A stretch of DNA of 64,000 bases from Fulvia fulva (Eukaryota; Ascomycota; Dothideomycetes; Mycosphaerellales; Mycosphaerellaceae). The notes under the pieces were generated by a model. It saw only the letters and a list, made by a program, of their open reading frames with translations, had not been told where the DNA came from and did no database searches. Of this stretch, positions 9,601-64,000 are shown one piece after another. The stretch's first letter is position 1, and every line of letters starts with the position of its first letter. The stretch is taken from positions 744,001-808,000 of the forward strand of contig NC_063024.1 in the NCBI RefSeq assembly GCF_020509005.1. Reading direction: 5' to 3'. A program made the translations under genes and the position numbers.

Positions 9601-10139
9601 CGCGACCGCGTAGCCTCACCTGCTCGCAACGCCACCACCAAGGACCGGACAAGGACAACACCATCTGGAGGACCTTCAGCAAGCCCATTACAAGCCCTTC
9701 CAACGATATTTGCCACCTCGCCGGCTGCATATCGTTGCGTGACACTTGTTGTGGTCAGCACGCCCTCAAGCCGGCCGCGGAGCGACCGTAGAGGCTCACC
9801 CACCAACAACGCCACCGCAAAGGGCTGTACAAGAACAACACCTTGTAGAGGAGTAACAGCAAGCCTATAACAAACTCATCAACGATATTCACCGTCACAA
9901 CAGCGGCATATCGTCGCGTCACGACCCCCTGAGGTCAACACGCCCTCAAGCCAGCCGCCGAGCGACCGTGAGACTCACCTACCATCAACCTCACCACAGA
10001 GGCCTGTACAAGCATGACACCTTTCGGTGGTCCATTACCGACACTACAGCAACCTCATCAACGATGTTCACCGTCACAACAGCGGCATATCGTTGGCTCA
10101 CGACTTGTTGTGGCCAGCACGCCGTCAAGCTGCCCTGCC
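9601..10139. repeat. Tandem repeat, three copies of about 180 bp
   Basis: Three diverged head-to-tail copies start at 9601, 9781 and 9961 (180, 180 and 179 bp). Shared landmarks per copy are GCGACCG near the start, CTCACC, ACAACACC or ATGACACC, CAACGAT, GCATATCGT and GCACGCC or ACACGCC. Partial matches flank the array: CGACCGG at 10141 and a fragment before 9601. Copies 1 and 3 are open in similar frames (both with CCGQHA and ending in ERP or QRP), while copy 2 carries several stops there, so the array is either non-coding or a decayed 60-residue protein repeat. Confidence 0.8.
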
Positions 10140-10171
10140 AGCGACCGGCGGGAGAGCACCGCACATACGAC

Positions 10172-10739: not shown

Positions 10740-11700
10740 ACGCCATATTGCCTTGCCGCTCAAGGCATTACGGCATACGCTACCCGACCTCTCAGATGCC
10801 AACACATCCGGCCATGTCCTTCGGCTGCATGGCGCGCTTCTACCTCGCGGCCCTAGGAGGACCCTCCGCTCACCAACCCGCTGCGGAGATGCAAGCAGTG
10901 TCGTGGTATCACAGCTTCTCGACGCGCTGGCTCTGCCTAGACCCTACCCGAACAGCATATGCAAGCTTGTCCTTCTGCTGCAAGATGAGCGTCTAGCTGG
11001 GTAACTTAGAAGCATTGCCAGACTGGCCAACCGGCAGCGCAGACGCAAACGATGCTACGGTATCACAGCTCCTCAAGACCCGCCGGTACCAAACACAGGC
11101 GATCTTGTCCATCTGCTGCATGATACGCTCCAACTTTGCATGTCAGGAGGATTGCCATACATGCCGACCCACAGCGCAGATGCAAACGATGCTCTGATAT
11201 CACAGCTTTCCAAGACCCGCCAGGACGGAACACATGCACTATTGTTCTCCAGCTGCATGATGCGCTCCAGCTTTACATATCAGGAGGATGCCAGACTGGC
11301 CACCCCGCTGCACAGGCGCGAGCGATTCTCTGATATCATAGCTTTTCATCCTGCCAGGACGCAAGCCATGCACTCCTGTCCTTCATGATGCGCTCCAGTT
11401 TTGCCTATCAGGAGGATATCCCACTGGCCAACCCGCTGTGTGGCCGCGAGTGATTCTCTGGTATCGCCACCTTCGGACGCGCTGGCTCCATGCAGACCTG
11501 GCAGAGCAACACATGCTGCAATTGTCCTCGTCCTTGAGTTAGAAGGCATGATACCGCCTCGCTGCTTCCGGAGGATCCTATACTGGCCTGCCCGCAGCAG
11601 AGATGCAAGCATCCTGCTGGTATCACGACTTTACGACGCGATGCTGCTCCTGCCGTTTGTGCTTGCTCCAAATGCACCTCGGCTCCTGCCGTCCGCTAGC
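10740..11700. repeat. Degenerate tandem repeat, about 128-159-bp units
   Basis: A recurring block begins GGTATCACAGC (or GATATCAYAGC) at 10905, 11059, 11196, 11332, 11460 and 11619, spaced 154, 137, 136, 128 and 159 bp. Within each block I see AACACATGC-like, CTGCATGATGCGCTCCAG, TATCAGGAGGAT and ACTGGCCAACCCGC in the same order, then a GATGCAA tail. At least six units are visible. Frames shift between copies and stops are common, so protein coding is unlikely. It directly precedes the helicase gene and may extend into its 5' leader. Confidence 0.75.
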
Positions 11701-14856: not shown

Positions 14857-15501
14857 TGAGGTATTTCGGGAGGCAAGAGGACTGTCGTGGGTATAGGGGT
14901 TGGGGGTGGAGGCGGAGTTGGGGTTGGAGAGCATAGATGGAGATCAGGTAATGGAGGGTGGAGTGGCGTGTGATGAAAGGTTTTTGGATGTGGAGCTGTG
15001 TAAATACATATAGATGACGAAAAGCTATTGCTCTCGACGATGGTATTCGTTTGGGTGGCTGAGTTGAATAGCCAAATTGCCTCGTCGATGCGCCAACTTT
15101 CGAACGCATTGATGCGTACAAAGGTGACGATGTCGTTGGGGGCTGGTTGCTCGAACGGATGTCGTCGTTTCTTTTTGCTTGTCCCACCCACTTCGGTCGT
15201 TAACGGATATTGGCCATGCATATGAAGCAGGAACTGTGACTGTGATCGAGGCCTTTCTCGCCAGTTCATTATGTGATCATGATAATTATGTTCATCCTGT
15301 ACGTCTATGCTCGTTCCTGTCCATTCGTCCAATGCCGTCCCGTATATCGTATCCCATGCTCTTCCTTATGCATTCATCTCATTCCAATCATGTCACTCAT
15401 CTTCACAACCCAAAGTTTCCTCGTCAGTCACCCATCCGCGGGCTCACAAAAATCCCAAGCGCCATCGCTCAAAATCGCAGCACCCAAAATCAAAATTCCC
15501 C
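14857..15501. other. Intergenic, convergent 3' regions
   Basis: This holds the 3' UTRs of the 61-aa gene (plus) and the DUF3433 gene (minus). Overlapping minus-strand frames of up to 183 codons are proline/histidine-rich and low in complexity; I see no gene in them. Confidence 0.5.
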
Positions 15502-24369: not shown

Positions 24370-26841
24370 ATGTTTACATCTTCATGCGCAACGTGTCGAT
24401 TGAGGAGTCTGATTAGGACGAAGGAGGTGGCCAGGAGGAGGAGAACGGCACAATATGTGGCGAGGCCATTAGCGGCGTTGAGGCCTTTTACGACGTCGCC
24501 GAGTAGGCAGAGGAGGGGTTTGGTGCCTACACGAGCAGCACCAACGGCGTCCCCGAAGCTGGTTCCCTTTACGCGGAGGCAGGAAGTCTCGCTTCTTGAG
24601 TCTTTGTATACGTCTGGCAGCATTACGAGGGAGGAATGGAGAGAGAGTGTTGTGGTGCAGGCTGGCTTGAAAGATGAAGAGCAAGGGACAGAGGAACGAG
24701 TTAGACGGCTGAGAGAATGGTACTCGGGAGACATTGTGCCTGGTGTTCTGCTGGAAGAGGAGGAGGTGAGGGTTTATGAGAGGTTGTTTGGGAAGGCTAG
24801 AGAGTTTGAGGTTGGCGTGGAGCAGGAAGAGGGAGATGTTGAAGAGCAGGCTGGCACGGGAGTCTTGAGGGAGGGGACGGAGGGAGTGCTGGAGGAGGTT
24901 GAGTTTGACGAAGAGCTGGATATTGAAGATGAGGAGGATGTGACTAGGAGGAGAAGTAGTGGGAATGAGAGACTTGCGGATGATATCAGAGCTGCTATGG
25001 AAGGCGAGCAAGAGTCGGAGAGGGATGAAGTGGCAGAAGGTGATGATGGACAGGATGCTTTCTTACGGACACATCCTCTATCGATCGCAAACCGATTCGC
25101 GACTTCGCCCGCTACTCTACAGCTACCGAAGCTCCCCTTCATCGATCCCGTCACAGCTATGCTCTCCGGTATATCGAATACGCACCTGAACGAAACGGCA
25201 CATCGCGTCTTTGGCGGTCCTGGCCTGCCGTACAGTACTTCTACACCTACAAGAGGAAGAGCAATGCCACAGAAGCCGATTGCGCTTGATGCATATCAGG
25301 GACAGATGGCAGAGATTGAGGCGGATGTGTACATGAGCACCATCATGCCGGGCATGTACTCGAGCATCATAAGCACTCTGACGGAGACGAGGAAGCGGCT
25401 AGGTACTGCGTGGGCTGAAGATATGGTTCGCAAAGCTGAAGCTGGAGAGCTGCGGATCCTCGACGCTGGCGGCAGTGGTGCTGGTGTCCTGGCTGTGAGG
25501 GAGATGCTTAGAGCTGAATGGGAGCGTATGCATGAAGACGGCCATGGAGACGAGAGTCCAATGGCACTTGCTGAGCTTGACGGGAAAGCTGGCGGCGAGA
25601 GTGCAATGCCACCGATGGGCTCAGCTACGGTCTTGAGTGGGTCCGATACCCTACGGAAAAGAGCCAGCAAGCTCCTGGACAACACTACGTTCGTGCCGAG
25701 ATTGCCAGACTATGTCCACACCGAAGTGGCAAAACAGCATGGCAAGTTCGACATCGTCATTGCACCACACACACTTTGGCCGCTGAAGGAAGACTACATC
25801 CGCAAGACCCACGTCCAGAACCTCTGGAGCCTTCTCTCAAACAACGGCGGCATTCTCCTGCTCCTCGAGAAGGGCGTAGCACGAGGTTTCGAGCTCATCG
25901 CGGGTGCCCGCGATATGCTCCTCGACTCCCGCATCGCCTCTCCTGACTCCCTTTCCCGTCAACGAGATATTACTGAACCCATTCAGAAGGACCTCGAAGT
26001 GGAATGGGAGAACTTGACTTCCGTCCCGAAGGAGACTGGTATGATCATCGCACCTTGCACAAACCACTCAAGCTGTCCGATGTACACACAGAAGGGCTTG
26101 GTGAAAGGACGTCGCGACATCTGCGCCTTCGAACAACGCTATCACCGCCCTCAATTCCTGCAAACCATCTTCGGCACCAAAGGCCGCAACCACGAAAACG
26201 TCGAATTCTCCTACATCAGCGTCATGCGCGGCCGTGACCTCCGCAAAACAACCACCTCCACCATCGAACAAACCCCCGAAGCCCGCGACGCCGCCTTCAA
26301 AGGCTACGAAGCCTCCACCCAGGACCCACACTCGCTCTCCCTCCCCCGCACCATCCTCCCACCCATCAAACGCAAAGGCCACGTAATCCTCGACCTCTGC
26401 ACCCCAGCCGGCAAACTAGAGCGCTGGACAGTTCCCCGCTCTTTCAGCAAGCAGGCCTACCGCGACGCACGCAAATCCCAATGGGGTGATCTCTGGGCCA
26501 TGGGCGCTAAGACTTCTATACCGAGAACCCCGACCATCAAGCGGAACCGCCTGGACCCAGAGTATGCGGATCTTGATGTGAAGAGTGTCAAGGGGGATGG
26601 GCAGAAGGCGAGGAGTGAGCAGGCGAAGTGGGAGAAGAGGGAGGCGAGGAGGGGAAGGGGGACCGCGGGTGGCTTGAGTACGGATGAGTATGGAAGGGTT
26701 GTTGTGGGGGGTGAGAGGGTTGGTGTTGCTGGGGAGGTTTTGAATGGAGGGAAGAGGAGAGGGGGGATCAAGGTTAAGGGGATTAGGGATAAGAGGGATA
26801 AGCGGGGGGATGGGAATGGGAGGAGGAAGAATCTGGACTAG
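24370..26841 (+). CDS. RSM22: Mitochondrial small-ribosome assembly methyltransferase-like protein Rsm22 (METTL17 family)
   Basis: A single exon of 823 aa. I chose the ATG at 24370 because it begins an Arg-rich, acid-free stretch (MFTSSCATCRLRSLIRTKE...) typical of a mitochondrial presequence. A SAM-binding glycine motif, ILDAGGSGAGVLAVREM, lies near residue 361. Near 560 is APCTNHSSCPMY, followed by GRRDICAFEQRYHRPQF and later VILDLC; these cysteines match those that bind an Fe-S cluster in METTL17. The family helps assemble the mitochondrial small ribosomal subunit. Two long insertions, one acidic (residues about 150-245) and a Gly/Arg/Lys-rich C-terminus after about residue 735, are probably disordered. 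Length is at the upper end for fungal members. Confidence 0.93.
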   Translation: MFTSSCATCRLRSLIRTKEVARRRRTAQYVARPLAALRPFTTSPSRQRRGLVPTRAAPTASPKLVPFTRRQEVSLLESLYTSGSITREEWRESVVVQAGLKDEEQGTEERVRRLREWYSGDIVPGVLLEEEEVRVYERLFGKAREFEVGVEQEEGDVEEQAGTGVLREGTEGVLEEVEFDEELDIEDEEDVTRRRSSGNERLADDIRAAMEGEQESERDEVAEGDDGQDAFLRTHPLSIANRFATSPATLQLPKLPFIDPVTAMLSGISNTHLNETAHRVFGGPGLPYSTSTPTRGRAMPQKPIALDAYQGQMAEIEADVYMSTIMPGMYSSIISTLTETRKRLGTAWAEDMVRKAEAGELRILDAGGSGAGVLAVREMLRAEWERMHEDGHGDESPMALAELDGKAGGESAMPPMGSATVLSGSDTLRKRASKLLDNTTFVPRLPDYVHTEVAKQHGKFDIVIAPHTLWPLKEDYIRKTHVQNLWSLLSNNGGILLLLEKGVARGFELIAGARDMLLDSRIASPDSLSRQRDITEPIQKDLEVEWENLTSVPKETGMIIAPCTNHSSCPMYTQKGLVKGRRDICAFEQRYHRPQFLQTIFGTKGRNHENVEFSYISVMRGRDLRKTTTSTIEQTPEARDAAFKGYEASTQDPHSLSLPRTILPPIKRKGHVILDLCTPAGKLERWTVPRSFSKQAYRDARKSQWGDLWAMGAKTSIPRTPTIKRNRLDPEYADLDVKSVKGDGQKARSEQAKWEKREARRGRGTAGGLSTDEYGRVVVGGERVGVAGEVLNGGKRRGGIKVKGIRDKRDKRGDGNGRRKNLD

Positions 26842-26952
26842 GCGCACGTGTGAGGATTATGTGATGATGTCCAAGGTAGATGATGAAGTGACTCTGCTCT
26901 GAAGGGATGTTTCTCGATATTCCTGGTCTAGTGGTGATGTGCTTCAAACCAG

Positions 26953-27108
26953 CAAAAAGACAACGACATCCGCTGGAATGGCCATCGTGGAAGAGTTTTT
27001 CAGGCCGTACGATGAGCTATCATCTTACCAGAAAAGAGCTCCAAGACTCCACAGATTATACCGAGACAGCTCTACTGCTTGCGCCACTCCACCGGATGTG
27101 GTTGCTCG
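26953..27108 (-). ncRNA. tRNA-like unit A
   Basis: The 5' arm CAACCACATCCGGTGGAGTG and the reverse complement of the 3' arm, CAACGACATCCGCTGGAATG, agree at 17 of 20 positions, so the ends can pair. A box: TGGCGCAAGCAGTAGAGC. Terminator: five T at 26954-26958. A GATATC element lies at 27130-27135 upstream. No clear B box. Confidence 0.6.
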
Positions 27109-27238
27109 ATATCCTGGTAACATTTGCCAGATATCAAGGCTCACATCTTCATCTTGGGCCAGGGACAAAAAGTGAAAGGAATACTCTGATATGATGTCCG
27201 CAGGTTGCGAGGTCGTGTGATTTGACACTCCCGGAAAG

Positions 27239-27392
27239 CAAAAGGAACAACCACATTCGACCGAATGGCATGTCTAGGCGGAGGCATCGCCATCAACACC
27301 CATTGGTGTCGACGTGCAGCCTTGTCATGGACGTGTTAGAAAGCAACCAAGCGGCTACTGACTGAGCCATTCGACCGAATGTGATTGTCGAT
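27239..27392 (-). ncRNA. tRNA-like unit B
   Basis: Arms CAATCACATTCGGTCGAATG and, reverse-complemented, CAACCACATTCGACCGAATG; the three differences leave G-U pairs. The A box TGGCTCAGTCAGTAGCCGC closely resembles the D-arm of a lysine-type tRNA. Terminator of four T at 27240-27243. A TATATATAT box lies at 27411-27420. Confidence 0.65.
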
Positions 27393-27506
27393 GGTGGGAC
27401 TTTGGTGTTGGTATATATATGAAGCATCTGTCTCCCCTTTTGGGCCTCGAAGCGGCCGAAAGGCATATTTGGGCCAGGACGACTTGCTAATCAGGATGAT
27501 CTAGAT

Positions 27507-27662
27507 GCAAAGAGCAATGACACCCGCTTCACGTGGCAATAAAATAATGCATTGCACGAAGATCCAGTCACATAGCTGGATCGACGGTATCGACATCAAG
27601 CTTCAATGGCCTAGCAGAGGGAGAAATAACTGGTGAGCCACTGGAGCGGCCGTGATCGTCGA
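27507..27662 (-). ncRNA. tRNA-like unit C (weak)
   Basis: Arms GATCACGGCCGCTCCAGTGG and ATGACACCCGCTTCACGTGG are more diverged than in other units. The A box starts TGGCTCACCAG. Only three T remain at the terminator (27509-27511) and no TATA-like element is seen, so this copy is probably inactive. Confidence 0.4.
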
Positions 27663-27807
27663 AGATGCTCGGGAACGCTTCTTCATGAACGTTGAGCATA
27701 GGCTATGGTCTCCCTCCACCGGACGGAAGAGACGTCATTGCCCACAAAAGAAGATAGGACTTGGCGCTCAGTACGGCGCAGATAGGTTTCTAGGACGTCG
27801 AACTGGG

Positions 27808-27963
27808 CAAAAAGAGCAACCACATTCGCTCGGGCGGCGGCTTGAACACGCGTCGGGACCGGATCACGTCTGATGTCGTGAATCGGTCTTGCGGTGCTCA
27901 AGCTGTCAGATAGAAGAGAAGCGCCTTACTGACTGAGCCAATCGAGCGAGTGTGGTTGTCGAA
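27808..27963 (-). ncRNA. tRNA-like unit D
   Basis: Arms CAACCACACTCGCTCGATTG and CAACCACATTCGCTCGGGCG pair over the whole length with wobble. A box TGGCTCAGTCAGTAAGGCGC. A B-box-like GTTCAAGCC lies at 27839-27847. Terminator of five T at 27809-27813; TATA-like TATATA at 27982-27989. Confidence 0.65.
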
Positions 27964-28079
27964 GACTGCTTCTTGCTTGTTGTATATATTGCTGACAAGC
28001 ACTTTAACGACTGAGATGTCCTCAAGAAGCAGGCACACAAGGATGCCAAAGGATCGCCACGAATTATGATAATAGGAGG

Positions 28080-28243
28080 CAAAAAGAACAACCACACTCA
28101 CCCGGGTGGCAGCCGCTTGAGCAGAAGCAAGAGCAGACCTTCGATGCGCCGGAGGTATACCTGATCTTTGCCCAGTGAAGGCGAGAGTGGCAGTGCGATT
28201 AGTGCTGTACTGAATGAGCCACCAAGACAAGTGCGGTTGTCGT
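28080..28243 (-). ncRNA. tRNA-like unit E
   Basis: Arms CAACCGCACTTGTCTTGGTG and CAACCACACTCACCCGGGTG. A box TGGCTCATTCAGTACAGCA, B-box-like GCTCAAGCGG at 28113-28122, terminator of five T at 28081-28085. No TATA-like element was found upstream. Confidence 0.55.
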
Positions 28244-28281
28244 GGTGTCTGACATTTGAGCCACACATGTAACGAAAGCGG

Positions 28282-28435
28282 CAAAAAGAAGACCATACTC
28301 GTTCACATGGCAGCATGAAGAGGTCAAATTGATCGACGACTGCCGATGTTGATCAAGTCTGCCCTACCCAAGCTGTCAGCCGGCCACAGTGATGCCGTTG
28401 TAATTGAGCCACCCGAGCGAATACAGTCTTCCGAA
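28282..28435 (-). ncRNA. tRNA-like unit F
   Basis: Both arms differ from the other units in the same way: AGACTGTATTCGCTCGGGTG and AGACCATACTCGTTCACATG (AGAC instead of CAAC). A box TGGCTCAATTACAACGGC. Terminator of five T at 28283-28287; GTATATG at 28454-28460. Confidence 0.6.
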
Positions 28436-28729
28436 GCCAGGATTTTCAATGTCGTATATGAGCATACACTGATCATCGCTTTGCTGGATGATCGACTTTC
28501 GTACTGACATGGACTTGCTCCGTCATTGGGCAGGACAATGCAAATTCGATAGGAAACATGTGCAAGTCTTGGCAGCTTTCAAAGCTGCGCCGGCGTCTTC
28601 CATGGAGCAGTACTTGAGCAGAACACTGACTGAAGACTGCCCAGAACCTTCTAGAAGTATCATTGCTAACTCCACTGATCCATCACGAATTTCCTTATCC
28701 AGGATGACCATCACGAAGTCAAAAGATGG

Positions 28730-28905
28730 CAAAAAGAAGACCTCAGGTTTGACCCTAAGGGAAGAGAAATGGTTAAATACCTCGTATCGCACTTATGGTT
28801 GCCAGTGATGCAAAACTCATGAATGATAGCATATGCTATCGTAACCACATCGTTCGAACTGAGCTATGCACACGCCGAAGGTACAGCTTGCGCCACGGAT
28901 GCATT
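28730..28905 (-). ncRNA. tRNA-like unit G (degenerate remnant)
   Basis: A five-T terminator (28731-28735) and an A-box-like TGGCGCAAGCTGTACC survive, but the two arms no longer pair well. The flanking gap of about 450 bp on either side suggests a lost neighbour. Confidence 0.3.
28825..28840. repeat. Perfect 16-bp palindrome
   Basis: GATAGCATATGCTATC reads the same on both strands. Just after it is AACCACATCGTTCGAACTGAGC (28843-28864 region), resembling a 5' arm in plus orientation, so it may be the upstream element of a decayed plus-strand unit. Confidence 0.6.
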
Positions 28906-29224
28906 TTCTGCTTCTTTGATGGAGTAAGTAGTGTTTGAAGTAATTCTATGCCTATGTGAGGATGCTTCTAACGCAAAGAAGTGATGTGAAGAGTGAGGTC
29001 TAGTGATGCTTCTTGTGAGAACGTGGGATATACGACGTAAGCTTCACTCTCATTTGTTTGTCACAACTCTGTCACTCACAGACCGGCGAAGTAGGCAGAG
29101 GGGATGAAGCCTGTGAATTCCCCTCCGCTAACAGACTCGGTACTCCAGGAAGTAAACCGAGAGCAAAAGTCCTCGATGTAATCCGATGATGGAACAACGT
29201 TACTCCATATGTCCTGCTACAAAG

Positions 29225-29372
29225 CAAAAAGGCAACCACACCCGCTCGAACAGCAGCTCGACCGCCTCACCTATGTACCAACTGAGGTACGATGGAGTAA
29301 GCTGTCTTGAGCATGCCGCGGAGGGCGCATTGCGCTCCACCACTTGCGCCATTCGAGCGAGTACATTTGCAC
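29225..29372 (-). ncRNA. tRNA-like unit H
   Basis: Arms AAATGTACTCGCTCGAATGG and AACCACACCCGCTCGAACAG. The A box TGGCGCAAGTGGTGGAGCGC is an excellent tRNA-type match, with B-box-like GGTCGAGCTGC at 29253-29263. Terminator of five T at 29226-29230; TATA-like at 29394-29399. Confidence 0.65.
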
Positions 29373-29502
29373 GTGTACACCAGATCTTGACTGGTATATC
29401 AAGGCACGTCGGCTCGTACATGCTTCGTGATGGACGCAAGGCAAAAGATCAAGTACGACATCTCGCAGCTTCCAACGATGGAGTCTGAGATCATTTCGGA
29501 GG

Positions 29503-29656
29503 CAAAAAGAACGACCGTCCTTGCTCGAATGTCTGTTCTTAGCAATAGAGCAGCAGGCTTACGATATCATCGTAGTCCCGTAGCACTGCTAGCAGACTAT
29601 AGTTGTGTGCAAGGTGCAAAACCATTGAGCCATTCGAACGAGTACAGTCGTCGAAA
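29503..29656 (-). ncRNA. tRNA-like unit I
   Basis: Arms CGACTGTACTCGTTCGAATG and CGACCGTCCTTGCTCGAATG; both share CGACYGT, unlike other units. A box TGGCTCAATGGTTTTGCACC. Terminator of five T at 29504-29508; TATA-like TTATAT around 29675-29680. Confidence 0.6.
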
Positions 29657-29812
29657 GAAACTGACTACTGGGCGTTATATCAGCCTTCGCCTAAACAGCT
29701 GATCACGCACGATCTAGGAGTCTTCCATGTGATAAGAGCGAAAGGCAAAAGTGTACTGATCAGAGCCAAGTATGACTACTCAGTGTTGTCATCGAGAAGA
29801 TCTGCCATGTAG

Positions 29813-29979
29813 CAAAAAGACAACCCACATCCCCTCAAGTGGTACCTCACCGTCAGCATCTTTACACCACGACGCCTAGACGTCGTGGTGTGAAGGATGC
29901 AGAACGAGGCCTTTAGGTTCACCACCAAGCGCATTTGCACTTAGACCACTGAGCCACCTGGACGAATGTGGGTTGCTCG
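29813..29979 (-). ncRNA. tRNA-like unit J with internal long hairpin
   Basis: Arms CAACCCACATTCGTCCAGGT and CAACCCACATCCCCTCAAGT; both carry the extra C of CAACCCACAT. A box TGGCTCAGTGGTCTAAGTGC. Terminator of five T at 29814-29818; a TATTTAAG-like box at 30002-30010. The middle folds into a separate hairpin: an 11-bp stem (29864-29874 with 29881-29891) around CCTAGA, extended outward by GCATC/GGATGC. Confidence 0.65.
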
Positions 29980-30102
29980 AATGTCCCTGCTTCCCCATGA
30001 CCTTAAATACCCTCAACGACACTGAGCTGCTCGCCGAGCAAGAGCCAATCCAGACTAAAGGCACCGAGGCTCATGTATCTCGAACGGCATGCTTCCCTCG
30101 AT

Positions 30103-30262
30103 AACCACCTCTGCACGAATGGCTCAATCGGCACAGAGTCTGATCACTGTGTGCAATCGATTGACATCCGACATAGCGTACTCCCAGTGCCATGCAAAGT
30201 ATGTATTGATTCGTGTGGTGCATTTCGGTGCTATTCGGGCAGAGGTGGCTGTTTCCTTTTTG
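30103..30262 (+). ncRNA. tRNA-like unit K, plus strand
   Basis: The opposite orientation to the rest. Arms CCACCTCTGCACGAATGGC (30105-30123) and, reverse-complemented, CCACCTCTGCCCGAATAGC differ from all other units yet match each other, with a perfect 10-bp outer stem. The A box TGGCTCAATCGG is at 30120-30131. Terminator of five T at 30257-30261. A TGTATCT element lies at 30074-30080. Confidence 0.65.
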
Positions 30263-30532: not shown

Positions 30533-32275
30533 CTAAGAACTCTGACGTCGCGGCGTAATCGGCAAGAAATTCCCCACAATCAGGGACGGTCTGTTCAACA
30601 CACATCAGCAAACTTCACCAACGCCACCCCTCACATCCCCCCAACCTCTTTCACAAGCTCGGGACTTGGGTGATACTCACATATTATGCCCATCCCTCCT
30701 AATCGTAAAACTAAAACAACACCTGACCGTCTCCATCGGCACCTGCTTCTTCTCCCCCCTCTCCTTCTCCCCCGCGTCCCCCTTGACCGGACTCTTAGCC
30801 CTCTCCACCGGCCTCTTCAACGCACAACTCGTCAGAATAGCCTTCTGACTCTGATCAAACGCTATCGCGCCAAACTTCTCCCAGTAAGATACTAGGGAAT
30901 CTTCAGCGACAATTTCATGGATGGCGAGACGTCCATCTCGGAGCTTTTCGAGAGGGACGCGGAGGAGGTCGGCCATTTCGGTGTTGCCGCGGAAGACTTC
31001 GCCGGTGCGGCGCCAGCAGCAGGCGGGGACGGCCATGGAGGCGAAGACGCGGTCGTATTCCATGAGGGAGCGCTCGAACCACATTTCGACGAGGACTAGT
31101 TGGACGTCTGTCAGGCCTTGCATTGCTTCTCTGAATTTTGGGCGAAAGCGGTCTAGTTGTTTTAGGATCCGGAGCTGGCTTTCGCGCGTTAGGTGCTTGG
31201 AGATGTACTGCGACAGGCGAGAGTAGCCTTTGACGTAGTTGAAAGGTTTCAACATTCCTGCATCCCATTTTGACTTTAGCAGGGCGTGCAAGCGGTTCGA
31301 GGCACTATCGAGGCCGGCGGGGTCGGCGGCTGTCATGTAAAATTTATCGCGGGCTTTGGAGTCGATTCCTGTCGGAGGGAAAGTAGAGGATGGGCGGGAG
31401 AGTTCGATGCCTGCGGCGCTTTGGGCTTGGAGTTGTTGTATTGGGTTCGGACGGTTTGAGGAGGAGGAGGAAGTGGGAGGTGGGAGGCTATTGGCTGTGA
31501 GGGCGTTCATGGAAGAGGTGGAGAGGAGTGGATCGTTGAAGAGGGCTTGGGCATCATCGTTGGAGTAGAGGCCTGTGTTGTCGTCGAGCAGGGAGGAGGA
31601 AAGGAAGTCGTTGAGGAGGTTGTATTCGTTGGTGACTTCGGAGGTGTTGAACATGTAGTTTGGGTGTAGGTGGTGCATGTCCTGGAATTGATTGCCTGCA
31701 GCATTGCTGCTCCAATCAAAGTTCTGGAGGAAATTGTTGGTGCCATTGCTATTAGCAGACTGTGGTGTGGGTCGTTGTAGTTGTACGGGCGAGACAGGCT
31801 TCGGTTGTGCCAGATGTGGATTCGCACTGCCATTGACCAGCCCTATGTTCATATCGCCATTCCCCTGCCCATACTGCGCCACGCCATTCGACGCGGGTAT
31901 ACTCTGCTGTCCATCCGGTGTGTCCATCGGCGCCGGCGCAATGTCTGCCGTGCTCATCTCGCTCTTGGTGCGCTTGGGCGGCTCCCTCGGCTCGTCATGG
32001 CACAAATGTCCAATGTCTCTCTTCTTGCAGCGCGCACACGGTCGCTCCAGATCGCAGGTCATATGCGAGCGGCGACAGTAGACACAGGCATGATTCACTT
32101 TGCGCCTCTTCTTCTTGCCCTCGCCATTCTCCGTTGCTGTCGCTGCTTCCGAGCTCTTGCGCTTGGGCGATGCTTGTCGTTCTTTCGCGCAGGTGAGGGA
32201 CGGTTTGCTCTCTTGTGTGCCGGCTCTTATCTGCTGCTGCTGCTGCTGCTGCTGTTCATTCACGGGCGACGCCAT
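30533..32275 (-). CDS. Zn2Cys6 + PAS transcription factor, ERT1/AcuK gluconeogenesis-regulator family
   Basis: A long exon (32275-30681) plus a 58-nt last exon (30590-30533) across a 90-nt intron give 550 aa. The splice converts an early stop into IRRDGHNIPSLIVGNFLPI, the conserved end of the Ert1/Rds2/AcuK/AcuM family. The N-terminus has a run of eight Gln, then a basic stretch and the binuclear zinc cluster with cysteines at 64, 67, 74, 80, 83 and 92 (HACVYCRRSHMTCD). A PAS-like region follows near residues 400-480 (EYDRVFASMAVPACCW). Family members activate gluconeogenic genes such as PCK1 and FBP1 on non-fermentable carbon. Which paralogue this is cannot be settled by eye. An acetate-type transporter elsewhere in the window fits the same metabolism but is not linked. 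Confidence 0.92.
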
Positions 32276-58441: not shown

Positions 58442-59719
58442 GGTGCGTGGGATGAAGATGAAACGAGATGAGCCATGGCGGTATGTCTGTTCTTGACCTT
58501 GGGACAGAGGGTAGCTCCACCTGCTTCGACAAATCTCCGGCAGTGCATGCCCTGGTCTAAACCTTGAACCTGTAAGCGCTTCACTGCTCGATCCTCAGCG
58601 AGAATTGCGTTCACCAGACTGAATAGTGTCAGGTTCTTCAAGCGCGTACGTCCTTGTCAACCTTGTTCCACGCAAATGAGGTGCATTTTGAGTTCCTGTC
58701 TGGCGTGAAGAACCTGAACTTAGACCTAAGTAGGTATACACGCTAGCTACGAACCCTGCTTTGAGAAGTACATTTACTGTAGCGCGGTACCGCAGCACCA
58801 CCCTGATGACGCGCACCGGGCGTACTAACAACGTCTGCTGACTGAAGAAAGCTGCAGTGTTCCTGGCCAGGAGCAGGCCAGAGGAAAGGATATGAGTGCG
58901 AGTCATGAGATTCAGGAAGGCCATTGGATTGGGCGTGAGCCGAACGCTCCATGGCTGAGTATATTCGAAATACAAAGCACGTGGTATGCCGTCGCAGGTT
59001 GTGTACATGCATGCGGAACGCTGCCAGAACCCAAGCAAGCAGTGCCGTTGGTCCTCAGGGAGATCCATGACTGTCAGTGGACAGTAGGGTCCGTAGTGGT
59101 CGTATCATGGTATGGCCACGATTGGTGGAGAAGAGCGCAGTGGCCAAGGCGAGTCCAGTCGCTCACTCTGCAGTAGAACTAGTGATGTAAACGTCTCGCA
59201 TCGGATGTCGCTGCCCTCTGCACTGGAAGTAGTGGCCGCTGTTTGACGGAGGCTTGGGGGTCAGCGGCCCGAGAGCCACTGTGTTGGTGGTCACAGCCCT
59301 ATGGAGGATCGAATCATGCCACGGCGGCTCAATGGGGATGACTGGTCGCCATGCTTTTCTGATTAATACCTGTACGTATCTGTGTTTGGCAGCCTCGGAG
59401 GAACAACAGGGCATATTCGGCGAGTGTCCGATGGCGCCAAGGACGATAGTACTGCGTAGTAACCAATAGAGGTCAAGTCACCGATGTGTTGTCCGGGAGG
59501 TGAGCTCTCGCCATGTGTGTTTGTGCGACATGTTCATTTTGTGATCATGTGAATGCAGTGAAGATCTCGAGATCGAATATAGGGTGGATGAATAACACAG
59601 ATATTCAATCGAACTTTGCGCGCAAGGCTGATTTTTGGTAGTGGAAGTCGAATAATAGGCTAGAACGCTAGCATAAACACCTGGTGCACTCGGCTTTCCC
59701 GGTCCGCTGAATCGCGAGT
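58442..59719. other. Intergenic region up to the AT-rich boundary
   Basis: Holds the promoter of the RGS-LOV gene. Frames of up to 157 codons lack recognisable motifs. Composition is normal until about 59720, where it changes abruptly to AT-rich DNA just after a small inverted repeat (TTTTCTAAAAAATTCAGAAAA). Confidence 0.5.
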
Positions 59720-61740
59720 TTTCTAAAAAATTCAGAAAATAAGATATAACTTCGTAGTATGGCTAGATACGAGAATATAAATTTCTAGTAGTATAGAACT
59801 AATATAGATCTATCGATAGTTTGAGTTTCGTAATATTAAATACACTATAAGTTAGTAGGAGTTATAGCTGTATATATAAAAGTTTGTCGTAAATTATTAA
59901 CGTCGATAAGCGCTAAGACTTTGCTATTCTTTGCTCTCGGGAAAATAGACTCTTAGTATATAGCATTTTAAGGCACGTATTCAATAACGTATATTATTAT
60001 AGTAAGGTAGTAGACGAGTTATAATTTGGATCTATAAAGAAGAGCGCGAGATACGCGAGCTATTTGAATACGCGCCAAGCCCGGGTAAAAGTTGATCCGG
60101 CGCCGAGCTATTCACTACGGGGTAGCGCGTTACCTATATACGCGTACCTTTATACGTAACAGTACCCCCCCCTCTAAAAGAAGGAGCTCCTACAACTATT
60201 ATACTATTTAGAGTCTATACGCGCGGTATAGAGCTAGTATTGCTAGGTAATATAGTAGCGTCCGGTAGTAGACCTTTTTTAATTACTATAAGGCTATATA
60301 GAGATAGCGCTTTAGGTAGCTCGATAGGTAGCTTTAGCTTATTCGGATATTAGGCGTAGAACTTAGCTAGTATCTCTTCGTACCTAGGTATTAGATCAAC
60401 CTATTACTAGGTCTATTGTTCGCCGCTATTATAAAGTATAGTATACTATACTTACTTATTCTTATACTTTACTACTACGTCGAGTACCTTATCTACTTCC
60501 TACTCTTACGTAAGTCCGTCGTCTCGGGCAATTTTAATCGGCGGAGGTAGTAGTATACGCTAACCGGGTATCGGGTCGTCCGAGTCGCGTATAAGGAGGC
60601 TAGAGTAGAACATATTATATACTTTTATACCGGGGTATAGGGATAGGTCGATACGGTAAGATTGTCGGCCGATACGCTTAAGGACGGTAAAGGGGCCGAG
60701 TCGTTTACTATCGAGCTTCTTAGATAGGCAACGTGTTATAATGTATCGTAAGTTAAGAAATACCTTTTCGCTAGCTTAAGAATCCGGTACGGCTATACGG
60801 TACTTATTCGCTTAATCCGCTATCCGTACGCTACCGAAGCTATATACTACTTAGAGCTATACTAAGACTTCCTTTATATATATATAATAGTCGTCGTCTT
60901 TACTACGTATTAAATTCTTATTCCCCGGATATATTAGCTAATTAGTAGCATTCCCGTTAACGCGTTATAAGACTAGGACGGTATTGCTCGGGAGAGGGTC
61001 TCGAGGCGCTATCGCTAAATACGACATATTCGAAAGCCCTTATTAAGGCCATTCTAACGATCTATAAAGTAGGCTACTACCCCTAGAATTAAGGGAGTTC
61101 TACCTTATTTAATTTAGATAGCTTAAAGTTCTCTTCACCCTATTTCTTTAGCTCTAAACGCCGCGGAGGTGCCTAGCTACATTAGGTAACTCCTAGGTAA
61201 TAGTAGCCTAGGCTACGGTACTACCGGCGCCTACGGCTCTATAGGCGAAGCTCCCCTAAGACAACTAGTAGTAACTTATAGAGGACGTAAAAAGTATAGA
61301 AACTAACGACTAGCTCCTATACCCTCTATAGGTAATGATTACTTAGCTACATACGGCGCTCGTACTATCGTATTACCGAGGGTAATAAGAAATAAGGACG
61401 ACGTCTTAGGCGATTAATAAGGCCACCCGGAATTAATACCCCTATAGCTAGGTATCGGTCGCGGTATCGATACTAGGCCCCCGCCTAACGTACGATATAG
61501 TTACGATTATTACGAATATAGGTCAGTAGGTATGTTGTACGGTACTAAGACTAACTTAGTATATACTAAGCTAGTCGAGACAATAGTACGGTAATACTAC
61601 CGAGACACCGTACGAATAGTAGGAGCGACTTAGAGGACCTAAAGTCGCTTAGCTAGTTAGTACGAGACTGTCGGAGGAACTACCGTCGTAGGATAAGATA
61701 TAGGTGAAACTAATAAGGCGTAGTGAAACAGAACTAGGAC
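59720..61740 (-). mobile_element. RIP-damaged Ty3/gypsy retrotransposon, 3' part
   Basis: On the minus strand, 60720-60440 still reads LGPFTVLKRIGRQSYRIDL, VYNMFYSSLL and DDPIPG, the C-terminal end of a gypsy integrase, with stops. Downstream is a polypurine tract (AGAGGGGGGGG, plus-strand complement 60163-60175) followed by TGTTACG, the expected start of a 3' LTR running toward 59.7 kb. The region is TA-rich, with very few CA or TG dinucleotides and many TAG/TAA stops, the pattern left by RIP. It is not autonomous. The outer LTR end and target-site duplication could not be fixed by eye. Confidence 0.8.
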
Positions 61741-64000
61741 TAGAGCAATATCCCTCTATATAGGTATAAGAGATGTAGTCTCTATACCGATAGTAGAGAT
61801 ACCTTTAGTACTAAACACTATTCTACTATATACCTTCGTATACTATATTAGTCCTTCCTCCTTCCCTATTACGTGTCCTAACTTCCGTATATATATATAC
61901 TATATCTATTTAACAGGTTATAAGCCCGGGTTTACTTAATAGGACATCGATATACTAAGGAAGTATAACGTAGGGTATTATACCCTATACCCGGAATCCG
62001 TACGGTAACGTACTAATAGACTCGGGGAGTCTACTATACGGAACGCTACTAATAGACTTAGGGAGTCTAAGCTTATTCTAACTACCGTAGTTAAGTAGAG
62101 CTTGCTATATATCTAAGGCTACCTTCGCTATAGAAGACTTAACGAGTTACGAGGGCCCCCGGAAGGTCGGCCCTACCCTTACTCGTAAGAACTAAAAGCG
62201 CTAGTTTGTTATACTACGAGACTATCTCGAAAGCCGGGAGGTATTCTAGGTTATCGACGACTCGTCGGCTAATCTCCTAGAATCCGTTACGCCTAAGATT
62301 ACTTCGAAGGCGAACGGTATAGCGAGATATACTATCTTAGTATATTTGTCCGAGGAGGATAACTAAGAAATCTTAGATATACGAGATACGAAAGAGATCT
62401 AGAAACTTCTATAGAAGAAGTATAGTAAGGTCTATAAGGTATACGTAGTAGCGCTTATAAAACAGCTAGTGTCGTTTAAGCTACCGGACGATTAGACAAT
62501 TAGATAAGGGTAGATATATCTAGGTAACCTATCTATATAGATTACCGAAATAGATAGTAAAGAGACCTACTATAAGGACCCTATCCGGAGGTTTAAGCAC
62601 CTACTAAGTAGCCTCCCGGACGTCTATACTAGTACTAGGGATACTATCCTAGCCTAGCTAAACCTAGACTAGGAATCCGCTATAACCTTACTTAAATCCT
62701 ACGAATTATAGATCTAAGAGAGTAAGGGCGAGACCGCTCTATACTCCTAGAGGTAAGGGGGTAAGAGCGGCTACTTTATCTACAATAGTAAATACCTAGT
62801 TATATTGTGCCCGGAACTAGATTCCGTAAAGGAGTTTATTAAAAAGAAGAATACCTAGAAGTAACCGGAGAAGAAGTCCTACGAAGAGCTAGTCCGGGAT
62901 CTAGAGAAGGCCTAAAACGCCCTTAAGAAGTCTAGGAAACAGTAGAAGGATAGGAGAAGCCAATCCGACAACAAGACAAAGGTAAAGGCGATACGAGCCT
63001 ATACCTTACGAGAAAGCGATACCGAGGAAATATACGACGACGAAGTCGCCTATTCTACTACCAAAGTAAAAGGCAAGTTTCCCGCCTCTAAATAGTTACT
63101 AGACTCCTATACCTCCTTATATATAACTAATAACAAGTCTCTATTCAGATCGCTTAGGAAACTAGCGAGAAGGAAAGTGATTAAAGTCGGTAGGGGGTAC
63201 CTAGATATATTCTATAAAGGAATAGTAACTATAGAAGGCCTAACGGGGAAACAAATTACGCTAGAGAAAGTCTTGTTTATTCCTAATCTCGGAGTTAATC
63301 TGGTTTCATAGAGGTAGTTTAGTAAGTAATTCGATGTCAAACCTCTAAACTTTATACTTAAGTATAAGAGCGGAAAGCCTATCGTACGAATAGTACTACG
63401 AGGGGGGGTACCGGTAGTATCTTCGATATCCGACTCCCTAAACTAGGTAGATAATAGACCCCCGGAGATACTATACGAGGAAGCTCTAGCCGCGGTAACT
63501 ACCGAGAATTAGTAGGAGCTTTAGTATAGAAGATTCGTATACCTAGGTAAAGGATTGCTCCGGAACGTCTATAGGGTAAGTAATAAGAAGGACCCGATTC
63601 CTATCCCGGACGAGTATAACTATAAGGTATACTCTATCGCAAATATACGGAAGTTTAAAGGCGCTATCGTAGAACGAAAGAACGAAAGACTTACGCTTAT
63701 GTCTATCGATATCTACTATTAAGAACATATAGGCCGCAGGACAAGTATATAGGTGTGGATGTATTATATAACTAGATTACGTAACTAGGGTTTACTAGCC
63801 TATAGGCTAGCAAATATCCGGACACCTAGTATCTACCTATACTAATACTAGCAATACTATATATAGATACACGCTATCCTATTAGGTCCTTCTTCGTCTT
63901 TTATATAATCCGCCGTCTTCTACTACTACGTAACTCGTACCTATTTAATAGGTTATAAGCCCGAGTTAGTAACTTAGTATTTCACCCTCGACAAAGTCGT
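61740..64000 (+). mobile_element. RIP-damaged Ty1/copia retrotransposon, gag to protease (cut by window end)
   Basis: After an LTR-like segment and the tRNA-primer-like AGGTTATAAGCCCGGG (61914-61929), the plus strand encodes a stop-riddled gag (about 62260-63090; a Lys/Glu-rich end precedes the protease). A protease-like LLDSYTSLYITNNKSLF follows (normally DSGA in place of DSY), with FIPNLGVNLVS near 63270-63310, a copia signature. A second primer-site-like sequence at 63946-63962 suggests another LTR and a nested or neighbouring element running out of the window. RIP-type composition matches the gypsy piece. Confidence 0.75.
61906..63967 (+). repeat. LTR-end/primer-site direct repeat, two copies
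   Basis: CTATTTAACAGGTTATAAGC at 61906-61925 recurs as CTATTTAATAGGTTATAAGC at 63941-63960; each is followed by CCGGGTT or CCGAGTT. The two copies are 2,035 bp apart, consistent with two LTR/primer-binding junctions of related copia elements. Confidence 0.75.

Follow-up and report, generated by a model that had tools for sequence, protein, structure and literature searches.

A row of RNA-like units on chromosome 13

The DNA analysed here is a 64,000-nucleotide stretch (the window) of chromosome 13 of the tomato leaf-mould fungus Cladosporium (Fulvia) fulva Race 5 (C. fulvum), which carries, between positions 26951 and 30261, a row of short units built on one plan. In the intact units a TATA-like box 20–29 nt upstream of unit position 1 is followed by a 5' arm, the A-box motif TGGCKCA, unit-specific sequence, a 3' arm complementary to the 5' arm, and finally a T-run with GC directly after it. 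An earlier reading made from the letters alone (the sequence-only reading) had described a tandem array of ten clear units recurring every 270–310 bp, and both the array and its shared plan of TATA-like box, arms, A box and T-run are real. Its membership needs adjustment, however: of the ten family members nine are intact, but the copy at 27505–27664 is decayed, and an eleventh look-alike at 28729–28919 (the foreign copy) is a different RNA. Unit starts are spaced 201–310 bp apart, with larger intervals of 451 and 492 bp around the foreign copy. Nine of the ten members lie on the minus strand, U0 being the single plus-strand member (Table 1).

A covariance model, R1, was built from an alignment of the eleven array copies, the foreign copy included, and scores 60–109 bits on these training sequences. 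When RNAalifold was applied to the same eleven aligned copies with no structure supplied, it predicted a terminal helix of 22 pairs, 17 of them with both sides changed in at least one sequence. The rest of the window yields under R1 four antisense echoes of the array and one solitary unit, and nothing else.

Table 1. Units and signals in the window (R1 scores in bits; fold energies in kcal/mol; z, folding relative to shuffles)
Feature	Position	Strand	A box	R1 score	Fold energy	z	Remarks
U0, intact	30096..30261	+	30120-30126	98.9 (training)	−63.3	−4.1	T-run 30257-30261
U1, intact	29812..29980	−	29950-29956	83.3 (training)	−81.8	−7.1	long inner hairpin
U2, intact	29502..29656	−	29626-29632	92.9 (training)		−3.6	
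U3, intact	29223..29375	−	29345-29351	76.9 (training)		−5.4	
Foreign copy, non-member	28729..28919	−					copy of second sequence-conserved RNA (TATA-like box, A box, T-run); best fold without closing helix
U5, intact	28280..28435	−	28405-28411	108.8 (training)		−3.9	
U6, intact	28079..28245	−	28215-28221	103.2 (training)		only −1.9	TATA-like box just TACAT; closing helix in best fold
U7, intact	27807..27964	−	27934-27940	105 (training)		−7.5 full, −6.3 core	5' arm 27937-27960
TATATA box of U7	27983..27988	−					sequence motif; matches family-wide TATA peak
U8, decayed	27505..27664	−		78.8 (training)			no TATA-like box; only TTT (no T4 run); 0/24 closing pairs in best fold
U9, intact	27238..27393	−	27363-27369		−69.8	−7.0	unbroken 24-bp closing helix in best fold; 0/200 shuffles equal
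TATATATA box of U9	27412..27419	−					sequence motif
U10, intact	26951..27110	−	27080-27086	97.5 (training)		−3.9	
Solitary unit outside array	15032..15176	+		34.1, E 1.5e-6 (non-training)			TATA-like box, TGGCTGA, CTTTTTGC

A genome-wide family

The array is one part of a family of about 80 predicted RNA genes that is spread over the whole C. fulvum genome (67,169,167 bases in 14 contigs), often in same-strand rows. Ordinary DNA similarity is blind to this family, since a search with the 156 bases of U9 matched nothing but itself. An exact gapped pattern likewise gave no match in the whole genome, and nothing matching was found in plasmid records. Degenerate patterns of the 5' arm, allowing up to three mismatches, gave 12, 71 and 89 genome matches, and a degenerate pattern of the 3' arm gave 20, with no match for any of the reversed patterns. 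R1 was scanned over fetched 3-kb loci and the results were merged by position, which left 83 sense units, or 82 in 34 clusters without the foreign copy; the largest clusters hold 10, 8, 5, 5 and 5 units, and each of contigs 1–13 carries at least one unit. The 82-unit set leaves out antisense echoes of palindromic units, repeats from overlapping loci, matches cut by a locus end, and one match of 8.9 bits; two of its units score just 15–16 bits under R1, and one, U8, is decayed. Addition of pattern-only matches (35 places) brings the total to 117 places, which form 60 clusters and leave contig 14 empty. Among these 117 places, 38 of 54 same-strand neighbours are separated by 200–350 bp, and all members point the same way in 21 of the 23 multi-member clusters.

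Compensatory change in a closing helix

Pairing between the two arms was evaluated from two separate alignments of the 82 units, one of 5' ends and one of 3' ends, neither of which used pairing information. In the resulting 44 x 46 (2024) column pairs, the twelve highest corrected mutual information values all lie on one antidiagonal, where canonical pairing is found in 68–98% of units; thus all twelve of the strongest co-varying pairs fall on one closing helix of ~24 bp. In the 72 units outside the training array, canonical combinations fill 89% of the cells of the 16 central pairs, a share that drops to 31–44% when the register is shifted by one or two positions, and the summed mutual information reaches 7.85, where the highest of 200 permutations gives 1.74. 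Relatedness is disregarded by these permutation tests; taking one unit per cluster (n = 34), for which the sum is 7.89 versus 2.61 in permutations, reduces its effect but does not abolish it. Mean duplex energies tell the same story from the side of the arms: −33.1 kcal/mol for a unit's own arms, −25.7 for arms swapped within a cluster, −21.5 for arms swapped between clusters, and −15.0 for shuffled arms. Since a unit's own arms beat both kinds of swap, co-variation of the pairing has taken place inside clusters and also from one cluster to another. R1 itself favours paired arms, so the arms were retested at places located by the 5' arm alone (the 64 distinct matches of the 71- and 89-match patterns with enough sequence), where the downstream complement beats all 20 shuffles at 57 of 64 places.

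The mismatches that are tolerated identify the folding strand. Relative to the expectation from column make-up, G-U occurs at 0.76, A-C at 0.46 and other mismatches at 0.40; tolerance of G-U above A-C implies that the strand that folds is the one with the TATA box, the A box and the T-run, as an inverted repeat maintained at the DNA level predicts no difference between G-U and A-C, and an RNA from the opposite strand predicts the reverse. The G-U bias and the compensatory changes thus point to selection on RNA. The outer end of the helix (GACAA/TTGTT) belongs to its least variable segments.

Unrelated but structured cores

The unit-specific cores, 67–114 nt long in the 82 units, are unrelated in sequence, in agreement with what the sequence-only reading had said of the array: only 3 of 131 same-cluster core pairs and 6 of 3190 other pairs exceed the 99.9th shuffle percentile. 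Neighbours in two clusters share stretches of core, which points to tandem duplication. The cores are nevertheless structured, with a mean folding z of −1.63 relative to shuffles (32% below −2 and 13% above 0), whereas spacers (mean z 0.10) and upstream DNA (−0.32) fold little or no better than shuffles. In best folds at least 12 of the 24 closing pairs form in 81 of 82 units, and of these 81, 57 are Y-shaped, with precisely two inner arms: a short arm of median 29 nt next to the A box and a second, longer arm of median 62 nt. The remaining units have one, three or four inner arms.

Predicted promoter and terminator signals

TATA occurs at a fixed upstream place in 45 of 82 units, compared with 1–6 of 82 in four control stretches; under a looser definition, a TATA-like box is present in 68 of 82 (controls, 13–19). 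At the other end a run of four or more T residues is present in 76 units and of five or more in 57; a slightly wider search finds 77 T-runs, of which the next base is G in 71 and the second base C in 62. Although the 3' arm pairs with the TGGC of the A box, the first bases of this TGGC show higher conservation than the bases opposite them (T, 1.90 vs 0.52 bits; G, 1.56 vs 0.76), and the unpaired A of the motif is kept in 79 of 82 units. This asymmetry suggests that pairing alone does not explain the retention of the A box, which behaves as expected of a promoter element. A B box (GGTTCGANNCC) was considered and rejected, as it is found with up to two mismatches in 17 of 82 units and in about 17 of 82 shuffles; in the 150 nt downstream it is found in 11 of 82 units, a count without a shuffle control for that stretch.

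To judge from these motifs, the units appear to combine the TATA at fixed distance, A box and T-run of a gene transcribed by RNA polymerase III (Pol III). The genome's single match to U6 RNA (not to be confused with array unit U6) is preceded by TATATA at 23–28 nt and terminates in a T-run with GC after it, and this shared layout supports Pol III, by analogy, as the likely polymerase of the family. The U6 match lies at C4:1169208-1169308 and has near its 3' part a GTAAGC stretch that may mark an intron.

The description of the units as tRNA-like holds for the A box but for nothing beyond it, as the B box is lacking and the closing helix is ~24 bp long. That they are not ordinary tRNAs was borne out: ARAGORN (bacterial code; used in place of tRNAscan) found no tRNA gene in the window, and Rfam gave no match at gathering threshold there. 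With permissive thresholds, Rfam gave only three sub-gathering matches in the array and seven further loci, two of which (SNORD59, 17.5 bits against a gathering threshold of 45, and ZFAT-AS1_3, 15 bits against 70) lie in the array outside the units and were taken as chance. The covariance-model check proposed with the sequence-only reading was performed in one genome, that of C. fulvum, and returned 82 members with unrelated cores and compensatory arms, which are not copies of one tRNA or of one short interspersed nuclear element (SINE). A structured-RNA family with Pol III-style signals is thus supported, and it extends well beyond the array in which it was first seen.

Genomic setting

The array is flanked by a gene with an Rsm22 domain (24370-26841, plus strand) and a gene with Zn2Cys6 and ERT1/acuK PAS domains (30677-32275, minus strand). 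Its TpA/ApT ratio of 0.63 is without the signature of repeat-induced point mutation (RIP), by which the C. fulvum genome is known, from passages of PMC10823647, to mutate duplicated DNA; the ratio at 59–64 kb of the same window is 1.8. The latter region (59000-64000) is an AT-rich block with a strong RIP signature. The 33 family loci measured have a GC content of 50–56%, compared with 48.94% published for the genome (in the part of PMC9453070 consulted), and thus lie outside strongly AT-rich repeat zones. Two imperfect tandem repeats, with units of 179 and 137 bp, are also present in the window, at 9727-10147 and 11014-11343.

A second RNA inside the array

The foreign copy was rejected as a member of the family because it has sequence-conserved matches elsewhere and lacks the closing helix in its best fold. 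In a DNA search with the whole array it has four other genomic matches, of 77–82% identity over 169–234 bases. Its R1 score of 60 bits is uninformative because the copy sat in the training set; it was part of that set and of the eleven-copy alignment, and is excluded from all 82-unit counts. The conserved body of this second RNA occurs at five dispersed places (28729-28960 of the window, within the array, and in fetched loci L075, 1490-1732; L076, 1495-1725; L077, 1500-1710; and L078, 1400-1690), with a TATA-like box, TGGCGCAAGCTGTA, and, in four of the five copies, CTTCTTTTTGC. No Rfam match to it was found in the loci scanned.

Proposed origin and processing of the predicted RNAs

The explanation that best accounts for these results jointly, and that is put forward tentatively, is that the units are a family probably made by Pol III, mostly as Y-shaped hairpins whose closing helix is probably cut by Dicer into small RNAs next to the T-run. 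It starts from the family, its layout, the compensatory helix, the unrelated structured cores and the Piwi and Dicer domains encoded in the genome, all of which are observed, and adds to them Pol III transcription, the transcript ends and Dicer cutting, which we infer. Transcription would start close to the GAC in the 5' arm, about 26–30 nt beyond the first base of the TATA box, and would stop in the T-run, giving a closed helix of ~24 bp with a short U tail. A closed helix with a short U tail is the type of end that Dicer accepts, and a cut within the helix would release small RNAs adjoining the T-run. If the 3' arm gave a 22-nt product with a 2-nt overhang, the 5' end of that product would come from the inner, more variable portion of the helix, and the first base of the product would be U in 65 of 82 units, a figure that is a prediction and not evidence, since the length of 22 nt was picked after viewing the columns. 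A preference for U at the start is described for the microRNA-like RNAs (milRNAs) of Neurospora in passages of PMC3547838. Tandem duplication would enlarge the clusters; cores and inner helix would then drift, with pairing, promoter and terminator retained.

The predicted folds place the T-run directly after the 3' arm of a hairpin, which is the layout expected of a milRNA locus, and such hairpins would be a natural feedstock for fungal RNA-silencing enzymes. The Dicer_dimer domain is found at two loci in the genome, and eight Piwi matches are found at six places. These six places are C13:26232-27206 and C13:119170-120167, both near one end of the chromosome that carries the window, and one each on C5, C8, C9 and C11; the place at C13:119 kb is in two pieces, one of them with an in-frame TGA.

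Several results weigh against this explanation or limit the support for it. Tested against all 82 partners, the own arm ranks first in only 29 units when the 5' arm is fixed and in 31 when the 3' arm is fixed (median ranks 2.5 and 2, respectively), and helix columns 18/23 are paired in just 68% of units. At places located by the 5' arm alone, the own duplex is weaker than −27 kcal/mol at 9 of 64 and fails some shuffle at 7 of 64, and one such place (C4:3794213) is without a clear 3' arm. TATA is absent from 37 of 82 units, even the looser box from 14, and a T4 run from 6. A sub-gathering Rfam match of one unit to MIR828 (30.2 bits against a gathering threshold of 69, E 0.041) is too weak to count and was taken as chance. 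Structured cores are not needed by what would be a mere Dicer loop, and compensation on both sides of the inner helix fits selection for pairing per se at least as well as selection for the sequence of a small RNA.

The chief rival, which is a real possibility, is that the units encode stable scaffold RNAs that a protein binds or exports via the closing helix and 3' U tail, with two variable inner arms working as guide, sponge or decoy, and with Dicer uninvolved. Such RNAs explain the compensatory handle and the structured cores about as well as Dicer processing does, as pairing has been retained despite sequence change on both sides, the outermost pairs are among the most constant of the helix, the cores fold above shuffle level, and the visible anatomy is that of a constant handle with variable heads. 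However, no partner protein is known, the Ro60-type TROVE domain (PF05731) has no match in the genome, and Rfam offers no family at gathering threshold in the window and no persuasive weaker match in the array and seven loci.

A Pol III element that is selfish or in decay, resembling a SINE or derived from a tRNA, and that multiplied in tandem, might be suspected from the A box, the dispersal of copies over 13 chromosomes and the presence of at least one decayed copy, but is highly improbable: the units are unlike SINEs, as the sequence-only reading had argued from their fixed spacing and distinct centres, the cores are unrelated, a B box is not above chance, and the compensatory changes and G-U bias point to selection on RNA, while the uniform orientation of most clusters and the regular spacing of same-strand neighbours also speak against it. 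Terminal inverted repeats of a DNA transposon, of the type of a miniature inverted-repeat transposable element with differing inserts, would give conserved inverted ends and unrelated middles, but are barely credible and were rejected, since the TATA box and T-run lie outside the repeats at fixed places, the A box is on one side only, mismatches are skewed to G-U over A-C, and the conserved columns flanking the arms differ (CCTC before, CTTTTTGC after, at the level of the alignment and not copy by copy), so that no target-site duplication adjoins the arms.

Comparison with known Pol III RNAs

Vault RNAs and Y RNAs are Pol III transcripts with paired ends and variable centres that occur in small clusters; vault RNAs carry a B box, and Y RNAs partner Ro60. 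The C. fulvum family differs from the former in that its A box is present but its B box is not above chance, and from the latter in that the genome has no match to the TROVE domain. Adenovirus VA RNA is a Pol III transcript of ~160 nt. Passages of PMC7589676 describe VA RNA I/II as having central and apical stems, a U-run terminator, and a terminal stem that contains box A, is a Dicer substrate and functions in export. A terminal stem holding the A box, inner stems and a U-run terminator are thus common to both systems; however, VA RNA is viral, comes from one or two genes and has box B in its apical stem (same passages), compared with ~80 units in a fungal genome here.

The closest fungal likeness is to the milR loci of Neurospora, for which passages of PMC3547838 describe hairpin precursors and, in milR-1 to milR-4, a T-run directly past the small RNA, as well as dependence of milR-1 on TATA-like elements and on Pol III, which binds there. 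The differences are that there are four such loci, for which those passages mention no shared co-varying scaffold, that milR-1 has no predicted A or B box (a figure legend marks putative boxes among milR-1 to -4), whereas intact array units have an A box, and that small RNAs are demonstrated at the Neurospora loci but only predicted for the C. fulvum family. The trans-species microRNA loci of Cuscuta, in the parts of PMC10226582 consulted, resemble the family in being many small-RNA genes of a parasite with one promoter element, of the U-snRNA (small nuclear RNA) type with Pol III features; but Cuscuta is a plant, its element is 10 nt long and upstream, and the same parts mention no shared closing helix, while the C. 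fulvum units have TATA and A box.

Among the matches listed in searches of open-licence papers on Pol III hairpin RNAs, on the small RNAs of this fungus and on novel fungal RNA families, no title or abstract start describes the family. The terms "small RNA" and "non-coding" are absent from the main text of two genome papers (PMC10823647, PMC9453070), and passages of a re-analysis of fungal hairpins (PMC9757828) and of a paper on 15 motifs (PMC5640933) make no mention of such a family.

Significance

The family thus comprises ~80 RNA genes with very clear compensatory changes, without an Rfam match in the window or a description among the matches listed from the open-licence literature. If transcribed, it would be, to our knowledge, among the largest fungal Pol III-type gene families other than those of tRNA and 5S RNA. 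With loci, promoter, ends and predicted products in hand, the origin of fungal hairpin small RNAs would then become directly testable. A more speculative and rather doubtful proposal is that the family is the RNA counterpart of a variable-effector family, in which the Pol III genes, numbering up to a hundred or more, have a constant promoter, a terminator and a co-varying handle in common, but each its own structured core and small RNA; tandem duplication and drift would then supply a plant parasite with a fast-renewing repertoire of hairpin RNAs. A scaffold with a variable core would also show an RNA gene family diversifying under a pairing constraint, in a genome that is known for RIP from passages of PMC10823647.

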